Positions 28,453 through 47,731 of a stretch of 53,691 nucleotides of DNA are shown here, piece after piece (positions within the stretch are counted from its first letter, which is position 1; every line of letters begins with the position of its first letter). Source of the DNA: Deltaproteobacteria bacterium (lineage in GTDB: Bacteria; Desulfobacterota; DSM-4660; Desulfatiglandales; Desulfatiglandaceae). The position numbers and the translations under genes are program-made. The stretch is from assembly GCA_019309145.1 (NCBI GenBank), contig JAFDGR010000003.1, positions 1-53,691 of the forward strand, given 5' to 3'. The notes beneath the pieces are model-generated. The model was given only the letters and a program-made list of their open reading frames with translations, ran no database searches and was not told where the DNA came from.

Positions 28453-28497
28453 AGGGGTCCTTCGGTTGAAAAAGGAAGCTGACGGGCCCCTGTTTTT
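28453..28497 (+). terminator. Intrinsic terminator between hsp20 and the MFS gene
   Basis: AGGGGTCC (28453-28460) pairs with GGGCCCCT (28484-28491), one pair being G-U, followed by GTTTTT. The loop can fold further through CTTC/GAAG. Its T-run ends at the stop codon of the convergent MFS gene, so it could work for the rightward transcript at least. Confidence 0.75.
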
Positions 28498-29698
28498 AAC
28501 ATTGTTTGGCGTTTTTGGACGTATGATGAATCAAGAAAAAGATAATCCCCACGAGGAGTGCTGAAACACACCCCAGGACCGGGAAGGTCGCTTCAATACC
28601 CATATTCCTCTCTACAAATTCCACCATTTTTACCGAGAAGGATCCGATCCCGAAAGTCACCACGAATTTTGTCCCAAAGGCCGAGTGATGAAGACGCCTT
28701 GGAGCAAACAAGGCCACCAGGGTGTTCTCGATGGGCTGCATTCCGATCAGGAAAAAAGTGTAGATGAAGACGAGTATGAGCAGAGGAACATCGTGGAAAA
28801 GGCCCATCAAGAATGCGGCTGGAACTGTGATGGCATGAAACACCAGGTAAGAGTAACGGGGTTCAAAACGATTTCCGATTCTGCCTCCTGCGTACTGGCC
28901 CAATATCCCGATAAAAAAGATCAGGGAGGTCGTAAAGGTGGCCACCAGGTTCCCGGGGATTTCCCTCCCCATCATCATGGAAAAGAAATGGGTCACCCCC
29001 TGGTTTTTCAGTTCAAAATAGGCAGGCATCACCACGGTGGCCCCTCGATAAGCGATCCCCCCCAGCATCATTGCAATGAGTAATATGAAAAAGGCGGAGA
29101 GGTTCCCGTTTTCCTGGTTTTCCGGGGCCTCCGGCCCTTCCGAGAGCAAGGTAATGGGAAGCAGGATAGCCAGCGCAGCTCCCAGGAAATGCATCCCGCC
29201 CAGGAGGAGATACGCCCCGGCCGGGCCCCATGCCCAGTTGATGATCCCGGTGAGGAGCGGTGCTGAAGCCAGTCCCACATTGCCGAACATGCCGTTATAA
29301 CCCATGGCGAGGCTCACCTGCCGCACTTCCCTTGAGATCAGTCCCAGTCCAATTGGATGATAAATGCCAGAAAAGAGACCGAGGGCAGCCAGGGAGATCC
29401 CGAGGGCATTTGGGGAATCGATGTATCTTGCCGCAGCTATCGCACTGACCGCGGAGCCAATGTAGAAAAGGAAAAACAGGAACCGGGGCCCCAAACGGTC
29501 AGCAAGCATTCCCCAGGGCAAAGCAGTGATGCCGAAAAGAAGGTACATCCAGAAAGAGATTCCCAGGACCGTTGACATATCCAGGTGCATTCGTGAGGCG
29601 AGGGGAAGGACAAGAGCGGGAAATACGAGCACGTTGAAGTGGCTCAAGAAATGGCCGTAACAGGTGACGGTGAGGATTCTTCGTTCGCGGGTGTCCAT
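28496..29698 (-). CDS. MFS transporter, possibly Fsr-like
   Basis: A 12-segment major facilitator of about 400 residues. The opening TVTCYGHFLSHFNVLVFPALVLPLA and the motif-A-like loop LPWGMLADRLGPR after the second segment support the family. The first segments look like the fosmidomycin-resistance (Fsr) branch, but substrate is unknown. The frame is open to an ATG at 29737, which lies inside the left arm of the repeat at 29724-29895. I prefer ATG 29698, which has GGAG upstream and begins at the conserved part. It stands alone between two rightward operons. Confidence 0.85.
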   Translation of the reverse strand: MDTRERRILTVTCYGHFLSHFNVLVFPALVLPLASRMHLDMSTVLGISFWMYLLFGITALPWGMLADRLGPRFLFFLFYIGSAVSAIAAARYIDSPNALGISLAALGLFSGIYHPIGLGLISREVRQVSLAMGYNGMFGNVGLASAPLLTGIINWAWGPAGAYLLLGGMHFLGAALAILLPITLLSEGPEAPENQENGNLSAFFILLIAMMLGGIAYRGATVVMPAYFELKNQGVTHFFSMMMGREIPGNLVATFTTSLIFFIGILGQYAGGRIGNRFEPRYSYLVFHAITVPAAFLMGLFHDVPLLILVFIYTFFLIGMQPIENTLVALFAPRRLHHSAFGTKFVVTFGIGSFSVKMVEFVERNMGIEATFPVLGCVSALLVGIIFFLIHHTSKNAKQC

Positions 29699-29723
29699 GT
29701 CTATAGTGCTCTCCATCATGAGA

Positions 29724-29895
29724 TTGTACCTATCCATAAATGGCTCTTTTGCCCGATATCGTCGTTATGCTCAAATTTTAATCCTCGAAATACCTCGCTG
29801 GATTCCTATGGTTAAAATGCTCGCATGCTCCCGCGCAGAGTGCTGGATCTTCGACTTGATCTCGAACAAACTATCTCATGTATGGATAGGTACAA
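29724..29895. repeat. 172-bp intergenic element bounded by inverted repeats
   Basis: The ends are 19-base inverted repeats with one mismatch (29724-29742 and 29877-29895; common core TTGTACCTATCCATA). Inside is another near-dyad, ATTTTAATCC and GGTTAAAAT, around 29775-29818. The left 32 bases (29726-29757) recur inverted at 47700-47731 with 30 of 32 identical. No ORF fits it. It could be a MITE-like element or a structured repeat of the host lineage; copy number in the genome is unknown. Confidence 0.7.
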
Positions 29896-30085: not shown

Positions 30086-31927
30086 ATGTTAAAAGATCTG
30101 CACGATCTGGTTAAGGCGGTCAGGCGGGAGCCATGGGCGAAAAATCTCGAGGCCGGTGAGGATTTCTGGGCACTTCTCCCGGAGTGGCTGGAGGAGCATG
30201 TCATAGCGGACTTTCTCGGCCAGGTTATCCGTCAGGTGGATGAAATCGTCGATATTGACCCTGATCTGTCCGAACCCCGAATCCTTGAAATTGCCACACG
30301 ATATATGGTTGATTTCCTGGGTGCCCAGTCAGCTTCCGTCAGGATATATGACCCCCTCACCGAACAGATGCTCAGCTACGGGTCCTTTCCCCTGGATGAA
30401 CATTCGAGAGAGACGTACATTCCCCTCGAAGGCAGTATAGCCGGTGAAGTGGTGAAGAGTAGAAAACCGTGCCTGGTCCCCAATATTCTTGATGAAGGTC
30501 GATACCAGGACAAAAATGTCATCAGACGCAAGGGTGTCCATTCACTACTGGCGATCCCGCTTGAAATCCCTCGGTTTTTCCCTCATGAAAGAGACACCGT
30601 GGGGGTTATCCAGATCTATTACCGGGAAAAGGATCGCACGTTTTCCACGCTCGAAATCCAGATCGCGAACCTGATGGCAAAACGGCTCAGTTTCGTGATA
30701 GCGCGAAAGAAGATTCTCTCAATGCACCGGATGAACGAGAAAAAGGACTCGATTATCCAGCATATCTTCAAGACCCTCGGGAGAAAGGGCGGTATCAAAA
30801 TGAAGGAGGTGTTCAACAGGATTATTCCTGAATTGGCCGATATGGTGAATGTTCAGAGTTGCGCGCTTTTTTCCGTGATGCCTGACTACAATCATGTGAT
30901 ACTCGAGGCCGCCTTTCCCGAGCAGGGGAGTTATCACAGTATCGGCATGAAATTCCCCGTAGGAAAAGAGCCGGCATTTGAAATGATCCTGAACCTGAGG
31001 GATTATCGGGGCAATTCCACGTACGAAATCGTCACACCCTCCTACATCCTGGTCGTTGACCCGCAGAAGAGTGAACTGATTTCAGGGCAGATGAAGAAAT
31101 TCGCCAAGGCGCACAATATTAATTCCATCCTTTATATTCCCCTTTTTGTGGAAGGGGAAATCACCCATTTCATAACATTTGATGCTCTTGAACAGCGATT
31201 ACGATACAGGGAGGATGAGATAGAACTCTTTCTTTTCCTGGGTAGGGAGTTGATGAAAGCGCAGAAAATGGAGCGATTGGATGATATCCTGCATGATTTC
31301 AAGAACCCTACCATCGCGGTAGCCGGGTTTGCCAGGAGGCTGAAAGTACTGCTTGAAAAGGAACCCGATGAAACATCAAAGGATCAGATTCGCCGGTACA
31401 CCGACATCCTTCTGGAGGAAACGAGTCGACTCCAAGAGCTTTCCCTGAGTATCTATGCAGTAGGAAAGGAACAAGTTGTTGATTTATCAGACATCCTTCG
31501 GCGCCGTTTTGAGATCAACAGGGAGGCAATCAAAGAGCAACTGAAGCAGAACGTGGAGTTGAAGGAGGGTCCGTTTCAACCAGGATTACTTGTCCGTTGT
31601 TATCCGATACATCTGGAGAGAGTGTTTGATAATCTGTTGAACAACGCCACCAAAGCAATACCGCTCCGGGGAGGATTCCTGGCCATTCGAACCTATGGAG
31701 ACGGGGAATGGGCCTGCGCAGAAATCAGTAACAGCGGCCAGATCTCATATGAAGACAGGGTGAGACTGCTTGAAGGGGAGGCCGAAGGCCGGGGACTGTA
31801 TATTACCAACCGGATTGTCCGCCTTTTGAAAGGAAAAATGGTGATAGAAGGGGGGAAGAACAGCACGACCTTTATTGTGCGTTTGCCTCTGATCAGAAGA
31901 GAAAGGGATGAGGCTGAAGGAAAATGA
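30086..31927 (+). CDS. GAF-domain sensor histidine kinase
   Basis: A 613-residue soluble kinase with no membrane segment. Two GAF-like sensor domains are seen (about 60-215 and 245-400), the first with IPLEGSIAGEVVKSRKPCLVPNI. A HisKA-like helix has the H-box LHDFKNPTIAVAGFARRL with an N-x-x-x-x-x spacing typical of HDxKNP kinases. The ATPase domain has an N-box (ERVFDNLLNNATKAIP) and a late G-box (GRGLYITNRIVRLLKGK), while the D-x-G-x-G box is reduced to EISNSG. Its stop overlaps the diguanylate cyclase start by 4 bp. No response regulator is adjacent. Confidence 0.88.
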   Translation: MLKDLHDLVKAVRREPWAKNLEAGEDFWALLPEWLEEHVIADFLGQVIRQVDEIVDIDPDLSEPRILEIATRYMVDFLGAQSASVRIYDPLTEQMLSYGSFPLDEHSRETYIPLEGSIAGEVVKSRKPCLVPNILDEGRYQDKNVIRRKGVHSLLAIPLEIPRFFPHERDTVGVIQIYYREKDRTFSTLEIQIANLMAKRLSFVIARKKILSMHRMNEKKDSIIQHIFKTLGRKGGIKMKEVFNRIIPELADMVNVQSCALFSVMPDYNHVILEAAFPEQGSYHSIGMKFPVGKEPAFEMILNLRDYRGNSTYEIVTPSYILVVDPQKSELISGQMKKFAKAHNINSILYIPLFVEGEITHFITFDALEQRLRYREDEIELFLFLGRELMKAQKMERLDDILHDFKNPTIAVAGFARRLKVLLEKEPDETSKDQIRRYTDILLEETSRLQELSLSIYAVGKEQVVDLSDILRRRFEINREAIKEQLKQNVELKEGPFQPGLLVRCYPIHLERVFDNLLNNATKAIPLRGGFLAIRTYGDGEWACAEISNSGQISYEDRVRLLEGEAEGRGLYITNRIVRLLKGKMVIEGGKNSTTFIVRLPLIRRERDEAEGK

Positions 31928-44115: not shown

Positions 44116-44146
44116 TCCATCCGGAAATCTCTGATTTATGGATGGA
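44116..44146. repeat. TCCATCC/GGATGGA dyad, related to the dispersed repeat
   Basis: Seven-base arms (44116-44122 and 44140-44146). The right arm lies in TTTATGGATGGAAAC, close to the TTTATGGATGGGTAC end of the copy at 47717-47731. It sits 3 bp from the mltD stop codon. Confidence 0.45.
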
Positions 44147-44148
44147 AA

Positions 44149-46176
44149 CTAATTTGTTTTGACCAGCACAATCTGCCCGGGAAAGATGGTGCTCCTGGGC
44201 GTGAGGCTGTTGAGCCTCAGGAACTCCGCAAGATTCATCTGGTGGCGCTGGGCGATCATGTACGGTGAATCTCCCTGCCGGACACGGTATTTCTTTGCGT
44301 TTCCTGTATTCATTTCACCGGACGCATATTCGCCAAGGATGATAAGCACCTGGCCAATACTGAGATGGGCGTTCTTAAGAGAGTTGGCCCTCTGTATGGC
44401 GTCCGTGGTCGTGCCAAAACGATTGGCGATTTTCCACAGAGAGTCCCCTTTCCTTACCACATACCGTTTTTCTCCCTTAAACGGCTGCATAGTTCCGGCT
44501 CTGTTTTTGTGCTGAATACGCTGTTGCGCCAGGACGTATTTTCTTCCCACCGGGATCTTGAGTCTCCACCCCACTCGCAGATACCGGCTGCTCCTCAATC
44601 TGTTTATCCGCATGATAGCCCTGACACTCGTCCGGTATCTCCTTGCAAGGCCGGACAATACCTCACCCCTCCGGACTTTGTGGTACACAAATTCGGGGAT
44701 CCGGGGTTTCCACGCGGGGATGCTTGAAAGCTTGGCGAGGAGGAGTTTCCCTTTTCCCTTGGGCAGCCTCAGATCATAGGAACGAGCGGGAGTGGAATGC
44801 CGTTTGAGTTCAGGATTCAGATCGAGCAACTCCCTGTACGGCACGCCGATGGTTTTGGCGACGGTTTTGAGGTGAACCGGCTTGTCAACGGTGACCTTCT
44901 CCGCTTCCAGGGGCGGGTAGACCGGTGGAAGGGTAAACCCATATTTTTTGGGATTCTGGAGAATATGCAGGACTGCAAGGAATCTTGGGACATAGGAAGC
45001 TGTTTCCCTGGGCAGTTTTTCATAGAGATCCCAGAAATTGTCGAGGTAGTTTACCCGTTGGGTGCGAATGCATTTGAGGACCGTGCCTTCTCCGCAATTG
45101 TAAGCGGCAAGCGCTGTGGTCCAGTCCCCGAAAATCTGGTGCAATTCTTTCAGGTAGGAAATGGCGGCCTGTGTCGCCTTTTCAGGGTCCATTCTTTCGT
45201 CGACCCAGCGGCCCCGTTCAAGCCCGTATTTATAGCCGGTGGAGGCAATAAATTGCCAGAGTCCCAGGGCCCTGGCCTTGGAAAACGCCCGGACACTGAA
45301 CCCGCTCTCAATGAGCGGGAGCCAGGAGAGATCCTCTGGCAGACCCGCTTTTTTCAGGGCATCGAGAATGGCGGGGCGGTATCGCCCGGAGCGCTTGTAA
45401 GATTGAAGAAAAAAGCTCCTTTCTCTTCCCTGGAATCCCTTGATGGCCCGTTTCACGTACCGGTTCATAAAGAGCGGAATGGCCTTGTGATAGCCGTTCA
45501 CCACGGTGAGCCGGGAAGAGTACACTTCTATGATCCGCTTGGCGATGGTAAAGCGGAGGTCTTCTCGCTGTTGGAGCAGTTCAGGGTTATCATCCGGGTC
45601 TACCTTCAGTATGAGGGAATAGGCCTGGTCAAGGGCGTCCAGGGCGTTATCCAGATTCCCTCTCTTCCAGAAATCATTTGATGCCTGGCAGAACTCAAGT
45701 GCTCCATCGAGCAGTTCCTGGTTTGTTTTCTTGGGAGTTCGAGGGGTCGCGGCCGGTTGAATATTTTTCGAGGCGTTTTCTGTTTTTCCCAACCCTTCTT
45801 CAGTCATGGAAGGGGGAGTGTCGGCCATCTCTGCGTCCGCGTTCTGCGGAATTCCCGGATCAGTAAGCACCCAGGTACTGCCGGGGCTCTCTTCCTGTTC
45901 AGTTTCATCGGGGGGCTGGTTGGCTGTTTCATGCCCGTTGTCAGCCGCTGTCTTGAGGTTGTTGTCCTGACCGGAGGAGTTGTCCTGGGCTGGAGTGTTC
46001 TTTTCTCCGCGGGAGTCGGGGGCCTCGAGAGATGCGGTTGGTTCCCCTGGAGAAGACAATGATGAAAGACCTGCGCTTGATTTCCCCGGTGCATTGGTTG
46101 CACACCCGGAAAAAGTCAAAAATATGACGCCCAGGACAAAGAGCAGCAGAAAAGGAAGATCAGCTTTGGTTTTCAC
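44149..46176 (-). CDS. mltD: MltD-like lytic transglycosylase with three LysM domains
   Basis: A lipoprotein of about 675 residues that cleaves peptidoglycan glycan strands. From GTG 46176 it has a signal peptide ending FSGC, a lipobox with an unusual Phe at -3. A long low-complexity linker (about 30-150) follows, then an SLT domain with catalytic E in LPLIESGF, ALGLWQFIASTGYKYGL and AYNCGEG, then three LysM repeats (HKVRRGEVLSGLA, YVVRKGDSLWKIA, YRVRQGDSPYMIA). An ATG at 46260 is in frame but puts 28 residues before the signal. It converges on the M23 peptidase. Confidence 0.93.
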   Translation of the reverse strand: MKTKADLPFLLLFVLGVIFLTFSGCATNAPGKSSAGLSSLSSPGEPTASLEAPDSRGEKNTPAQDNSSGQDNNLKTAADNGHETANQPPDETEQEESPGSTWVLTDPGIPQNADAEMADTPPSMTEEGLGKTENASKNIQPAATPRTPKKTNQELLDGALEFCQASNDFWKRGNLDNALDALDQAYSLILKVDPDDNPELLQQREDLRFTIAKRIIEVYSSRLTVVNGYHKAIPLFMNRYVKRAIKGFQGRERSFFLQSYKRSGRYRPAILDALKKAGLPEDLSWLPLIESGFSVRAFSKARALGLWQFIASTGYKYGLERGRWVDERMDPEKATQAAISYLKELHQIFGDWTTALAAYNCGEGTVLKCIRTQRVNYLDNFWDLYEKLPRETASYVPRFLAVLHILQNPKKYGFTLPPVYPPLEAEKVTVDKPVHLKTVAKTIGVPYRELLDLNPELKRHSTPARSYDLRLPKGKGKLLLAKLSSIPAWKPRIPEFVYHKVRRGEVLSGLARRYRTSVRAIMRINRLRSSRYLRVGWRLKIPVGRKYVLAQQRIQHKNRAGTMQPFKGEKRYVVRKGDSLWKIANRFGTTTDAIQRANSLKNAHLSIGQVLIILGEYASGEMNTGNAKKYRVRQGDSPYMIAQRHQMNLAEFLRLNSLTPRSTIFPGQIVLVKTN

Positions 46177-47699: not shown

Positions 47700-47731
47700 A
47701 TCGGGCAAAAGAGCCGTTTATGGATGGGTAC
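47700..47731. repeat. Partial copy of the dispersed intergenic repeat
   Basis: These 32 bases match the reverse complement of 29726-29757 at 30 positions, with two A/G differences. They occupy most of the 44-bp gap between ccsA and the CCA-transferase-type gene. The end TTTATGGATGGGTAC also resembles the dyads at 1965-1983 and 44116-44146. Confidence 0.75.

Follow-up and report, generated by a model that had tools for sequence, protein, structure and literature searches.

The window, which is the whole stretch of DNA analysed (53,691 nucleotides), carries a short non-coding element between an MFS transporter ORF (28496-29737, minus strand) and a gene (30086-31927, plus strand) whose product has GAF and histidine-kinase-type ATPase domains. 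The first in-frame ATG of the transporter ORF, at 29737, lies within the end of this element (window 29716-29737), so an automatic gene call may set the start too far upstream. More in-frame ATGs of the ORF were read from the sequence just downstream of the element, and the true start of the gene is therefore probably there. The element, a MITE, and the related traces in the window are as follows.

29726-29893, plus strand: MITE copy of end type A, 168 bp, recognised by its genome copies, its inverted ends and siblings of 142-143 bp
29726-29742, plus strand: left terminal inverted repeat GTACCTATCCATAAATG, an exact match to the type-A end consensus
29877-29893, minus strand: right terminal inverted repeat GTACCTATCCATACATG, one mismatch
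29766-29827, plus strand: covarying core hairpin common to all end types (covariance model, 56.4 bits, E 1.4e-13), with left half 29766-29792, loop 29793-29800 and right half 29801-29827
29829-29854, plus strand: 26-bp insert TCCCGCGCAGAGTGCTGGATCTTCGA in the right arm, not present in the 142-bp siblings
47700-47731, minus strand: end remnant of the same MITE family, without the core and the second end, 30 of 32 bases identical
1962-1986, no strand assigned: 25-bp palindrome GTACCCATCCATTATGGATGGGCAC, two type-A ends back to back, from the end search
44133-44149, minus strand: weak end-like site GTTTCCATCCATAAATC with three mismatches, from the end search

For the MITE copy, plus denotes the strand that shows the core as CCTCGAAATA, loop, TATTCCTG. 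A repeat search of the window gave inverted arms of 19 nt (29724-29742 and 29877-29895, 95% complementary), which are the 19-base inverted ends with one mismatch described in an earlier sequence-only reading of this DNA. The element proper runs from GTAC to GTAC over 168 bp, and the extra TT/AA of that 19-mer, two bases at each side, is probably flank. The copy is longer than its siblings in the same genome (142-143 bp) because of the 26-bp insert, related forms of which were found in L002 and in copies from other genomes (L092). The right side of its core has decayed, with GATTCCTATGG in place of TATTCCTGYGG. No target-site duplication is visible at the window copy, as is expected for an old, decayed one. 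When folded as single-stranded DNA, the 172-nt stretch reached -26.5 kcal/mol, whereas shuffled sequences averaged -13.3 (z -4.6), and its minus strand folded as RNA gave a z of -6.1.

Small GC-rich hairpin inserts in the arms recur across end types and genomes: TCCCGCTCGAAGTCCGGGATCTTCGA (window 29829-29854; L002, L013, L092), CCTCCGGGGCGTAGGCCC..GGCCGGAGG (L090, L116, L204) and TCCCGCCATGGCGGGA (L003). They may be a further layer of very small hairpins that move or copy themselves.

The 32-base recurrence with 30 identities at 47700-47731, noted in the earlier reading, was recovered by BLAST against the whole genome as a match to the left end (94% identical, E 6.6e-7). It had been called a second copy 18 kb away, but it is a truncated end and not a second element. 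Half-sites had also been noted in two further gaps. The palindrome at 1962-1986 does consist of such ends and is probably a deletion remnant, whereas the membership of the weak site at 44133-44149 in the MITE family is uncertain. At the latter position, and in contigs C287 and C350 of G000, we observed GTTTCCATCCATAAATS, which resembles a type-A end but carries GTTT. These sites are perhaps the end of another insertion sequence (IS) or MITE class.

When a 180-bp query was run by BLAST against the window's genome (4.1 Mb, 404 contigs), about 30 places matched significantly. The core of the window copy was also matched by a covariance model from which that copy had been left out; the similarity is thus beyond chance, as had been proposed. 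Short deletion derivatives of 51-53 bp and 25 bp were present as well. With the covariance model, the core was detected in 47 of 85 genomes of the order Desulfobacterales, to which the window's genome belongs; at most 64 candidates per genome were scored, and high counts are lower bounds. Some of these genomes have over 200 copies. The model gave 20 matches in the window's genome and 14 in one other genome of its genus. The matches therefore extend beyond two places in a single genome, and the element belongs to a repeat family.

The inner motif was found in 21 of 395 genomes of the phylum, and a reversed-pattern control had no match in any. When species-representative genomes were scanned for exact matches to the inner stem and loop, at least 116 stretches were obtained, and those listed were all from records titled Desulfobacterales, Desulfobacteraceae, Deltaproteobacteria or plain Proteobacteria/Pseudomonadota. 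Among 2.9 million viral contigs, there was no exact match to the inner motif. The distribution is patchy: one family of the order (f3) is nearly devoid of copies, and hundreds occur elsewhere. The 3.4-Mb Desulfobacteraceae genome G001 contains 467 type-A ends (229 + 238; control 0). The placement is intergenic, with 3 of 112 copies inside ORFs. Tandem arrangements were also seen: in G001 (contig C45, L198 2902-3955), a 456-bp unit is present in three tandem copies with a type-A MITE in each, and on the minus strand of L087 (7105 and 7259) core copies with unusual ends lie about 154 bp apart.

Most copies are 141-143 bp long (168 bp in the window), have no ORF and are too short for a transposase. 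They possess terminal inverted repeats and are dispersed in many copies; target-site duplications are present at the level of the family, not at the window copy. The window element belongs to a non-coding mini-transposon family whose copies fill the genomes of sulfate reducers.

To count the duplications, copies from the collected loci were grouped by end type, and the expectation was taken from mixed pairs. The exact scan of species-representative genomes revealed that the flanks of the inner-motif stretches differ: the same core carries different ends. Besides the type-A ends, about ten other terminal inverted repeats enclose the inner 61-nt hairpin. Several of types E-L listed here are based on one or a few copies each.

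Type A, GTRCCYATCCAKAAATG (GTGTCCATCC..): 6-bp TANNTA duplication, perfect in 9 of 36 (1.7% expected)
Type B, GAGCCAGTTTCAAAACG: 4-bp duplication in 19 of 35 (0.6% expected)
Type C, GAGACCTTTGAAAAACG: 5-bp duplication in 11 of 27 (0% expected)
Type D, GTGCCYGAACGAAAAC: 6-bp TANNTA duplication in 8 of 14 (3.5% expected)
Type E, GGATAACAAAGCGG
Type F, AAAGCCCCTGAGAAAGG
Type G, TAGGAGGCTRTCCGAGAATG (L145 and G452)
Type H, GGGTACCTTGAAAAAT
Type I, GGGACGGGGCCGAAATAACTTC
Type J, GGCTATCTTGAAAAAT
Type K, AAGCCTGGTTGAAAAC
Type L, AGGGCTCRCTCAAAAATAACTTCA

Counting from the loop, each arm has 67 or 68 nt in types A, B, C, D, F, H and K, as well as in the clear J copy; in most end types the two arms of a copy are 67 + 67 nt. 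For the remaining types, the two arms differ by no more than two nt (E 59/58; G 70/70; I 87/86; L 76/77 and 86/88). The ends thus vary while the arm symmetry stays. The end types cluster on the core tree, with 16 changes against 32 when shuffled and a least possible number of 8; this tree is built on 88 columns with few supported forks, which is too little for a count of end changes, and no end change is forced by its supported branches. At L199 211-438 (contig C136 of G009), a type-B element is nested in a type-D element. Two loci with AGGGCTCRCTCAAAAATAACTTCA ends, L085 (1158) and L209 (2914, minus strand), have a quite different stem with the same inner loop, and the loop of L085 has C/A in place of the A/C mismatch.

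The type-A ends were also found on complete insertion sequences. In G005, a 1664-bp IS (L234 461-2124) has the ends GTGTCCATCCA and GTGTCCGTCCA and is bordered by TAATTA at either side; the best NCBIfam match of its 449-aa transposase is ISNCY (NF033593, E 1.3e-136). Two more complete ISs, L237 and L238 in G013 and G014, are 62-65% identical to it, with ends and TAATTA alike. In G001 (L242), the 3′ end of such an ISNCY transposase lies at a contig edge and is followed by TATTTCCGGATGGACAC, which is nearly identical to the end of the local MITE. The ends and the duplication length of type A equal those of this ISNCY element (GTGTCCATCC, TAATTA/TANNTA). For type D, the partner is supported by one clear end, which lies beside a second ISNCY transposase (L239, 533 aa, NF033593 E 3.3e-144); another occurs in L228/L241. 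An IS5-family transposase in L265 has a type-C end at one side only, and the published end of the IS5-family element ISNme1 is the type-C end (PMC4596501).

We found no relative of the L234 ISNCY transposase in the window's own genome and no IS partner for type B, for which scans with DUF772 and DDE_Tnp_1 yielded no partner. Metagenome-assembled genomes lose multicopy ISs, and the missing partners are for this reason weak evidence. ISAzo13 (PF07592) was considered as the partner of type B or C and rejected, as its ends do not match. Long end-to-end stretches in G001, G003 and G009 were considered as autonomous elements and proved to be ordinary genes between separate MITEs.

The type-A copies could also be read as an IS630-type MITE with the TA duplication of Correia-like elements, because TA flanks both ends of most of them. 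The duplication comprises six bases, TANNTA, instead of the 2-bp TA, which refutes this reading for type A, and the ISs with type-A ends encode ISNCY transposases; an IS630 origin is barely credible. The shared ends and duplications lead us to infer that the MITEs are moved in trans by the ISs with matching ends. The covariance model found no core inside the L234-type ISs. The interior is thus not a deletion remnant of an ISNCY IS, and the MITE would be mobilised by these ISs rather than derived from them. The proposal of a transposon-derived MITE in the earlier reading is borne out by copy number, ends, target-site duplications and autonomous ISs with matching ends. As far as sequence can establish it, the element is confirmed as a MITE of the ISNCY end class.

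In 45 diverse copies, the core forms a 22-pair hairpin with 91.8% paired cells and compensatory changes in 15 of the 22 pairs. The covariation score was 0.276, compared with 0.106 for shuffled and at most 0.094 for slid alignments. RNAalifold agrees with this hairpin, in which one U is bulged beside two C-G pairs. The asymmetric internal loop CCTCGAA/TTCCTGYGG is nearly invariant, and the surrounding stems can differ wholly (G238, L085, L209). Because the inner loop was itself the search seed for most of the copies, its invariance is overestimated; among 32 elements found by their ends, by whole-element BLAST or in neighbouring DNA, 27 have the loop with at most one mismatch.

Palindrome correction, i.e., template switching between the arms at replication, is known to produce paired changes in imperfect palindromes and might account for the covariation in place of selection. 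Both arms do change together, length included, which fits such a process. However, correction would remove mismatches, yet the loop and the bulge stay in nearly all copies with differing stems. Since correction alone would erase the loop mismatches, selection on the core as a fold appears to be the better reading, and we regard correction as a quite unlikely source of the pattern.

The same covariation, together with the conserved internal loop and the good folding of the minus strand as RNA (z -6.1), would be consistent with a functional non-coding RNA, trans-acting or cis-regulatory, for which the transposon ends are a mere vehicle. A structured-RNA repeat had been the second suggestion of the sequence-only reading, and its conserved structure was upheld by the covariation. 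A known RNA family was not: an Rfam scan of the window and four good copies returned nothing relevant, with no score above the curated threshold. With respect to neighbouring genes, the strand of the copies is 27 against 33, without preference. The avoidance of ORFs combined with this lack of strand preference argues against an RNA that acts in cis within transcripts. On the plus strand, A-C mispairs occur at least as often as G-U pairs, which indicates no clear RNA strand, and hundreds of copies in one genome with none in its relatives is the pattern of a parasite. An RNA function of this kind is therefore unlikely.

A bulged hairpin with complementary changes subfamily by subfamily is also what would be expected of a REP-type repetitive hairpin that a Y1 transposase (RAYT or IS200-like) recognises and moves. 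Y1 genes are common in these genomes, and two copies lie within about 100 bp of one. Nevertheless, Y1 genes also occur in genomes without the element, and inverted ends with fixed-length duplications point to DDE transposases. Of the two adjacent cases, L341 is a single one, and that in L315 results from an IS200-like element inserted into the MITE. We consider mobilisation by Y1 transposases very improbable. The latter locus (L315 1-720; contig C146 of G375) shows the IS200-like Y1 transposase element in a type-C MITE, beside a TTTTAAT stretch.

We conclude that 29726-29893 is very likely an old copy of a MITE moved by an IS transposase encoded elsewhere, and that the wider family very likely comprises one fold-selected core with exchangeable ends. 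According to this model, an IS transposase from elsewhere would bind the terminal inverted repeats and move the short element, and the insertion would duplicate the target, for type A the 6-bp TANNTA in accordance with the specificity of the ISNCY family. The family would retain a single hairpin core and equally long arms under many terminal repeats, so that related elements could be moved by different transposases, namely ISNCY for types A and D and probably IS5 for type C. The ends may have been exchanged by recombination or may have drifted to new transposases. Overall, the family gives the impression of a structurally constrained core whose transposon ends can be exchanged.

Unusually, one folded core occurs within many different ends, and these match different transposase families; this suggests some role for the core itself. 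Our guess, a tentative one, is that the fold has a function and that a common factor recognises the folded strand. Possibly, though we would not favour it strongly, the core is a transposase-independent selfish module: a folded-strand site (ssDNA or RNA) with a near-fixed loop, bound by a common factor and raising the copying or survival of any carrier, hence the ends of several unrelated IS families and the maintenance of two equal arms.

In the usual view, a MITE arises from a single IS by deletion and its interior is dispensable. Here, in contrast, it is the interior that is conserved, and the ends differ according to the transposase. Should this hold, it would provide a natural system to study what the interior of a MITE is for, how a non-autonomous element changes its transposase, and why some genomes hold hundreds of copies without a visible autonomous partner. 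A further product of the analysis is a covariance model of this repeat family, which is common in sulfate-reducer genomes and absent from Rfam. A literature search for the element or its end sequences returned only the IS5 end.

Among known systems, the ISNCY-family ISs (NF033593; L234 461-2124, L237, L238) share with type A the terminal repeat GTGTCCATCC and TAATTA/TANNTA. They differ in being 1.66-1.71 kb long, coding and without the core hairpin, and the similarity stops after the terminal repeat. BrickBuilt and MITE464 of Porphyromonas gingivalis and ATR of Neisseria are short, non-coding, multicopy elements with the type-C end GAGACCTTTGCA (PMC4596501), but their interiors are unrelated and each has one end type, whereas here one covarying hairpin interior is combined with about a dozen end types. 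The hupL and dsrA-intron MITEs of Thiomargarita (PMC4853749) and the Correia elements likewise reach hundreds of copies, contain a long hairpin and are intergenic; they have other ends and duplications (10-bp direct repeat; TATA), and no shared core has been reported for them. REP/GTAG palindromes (PMC3733652) are also imperfect palindromes with subfamilies set apart by complementary stem changes, but they are 20-40 bp long and tagged at one end, in contrast to the 142-bp MITE with its inverted ends and duplications. In comparison with these systems, the new part is the relation of a structurally constrained core to interchangeable ends.
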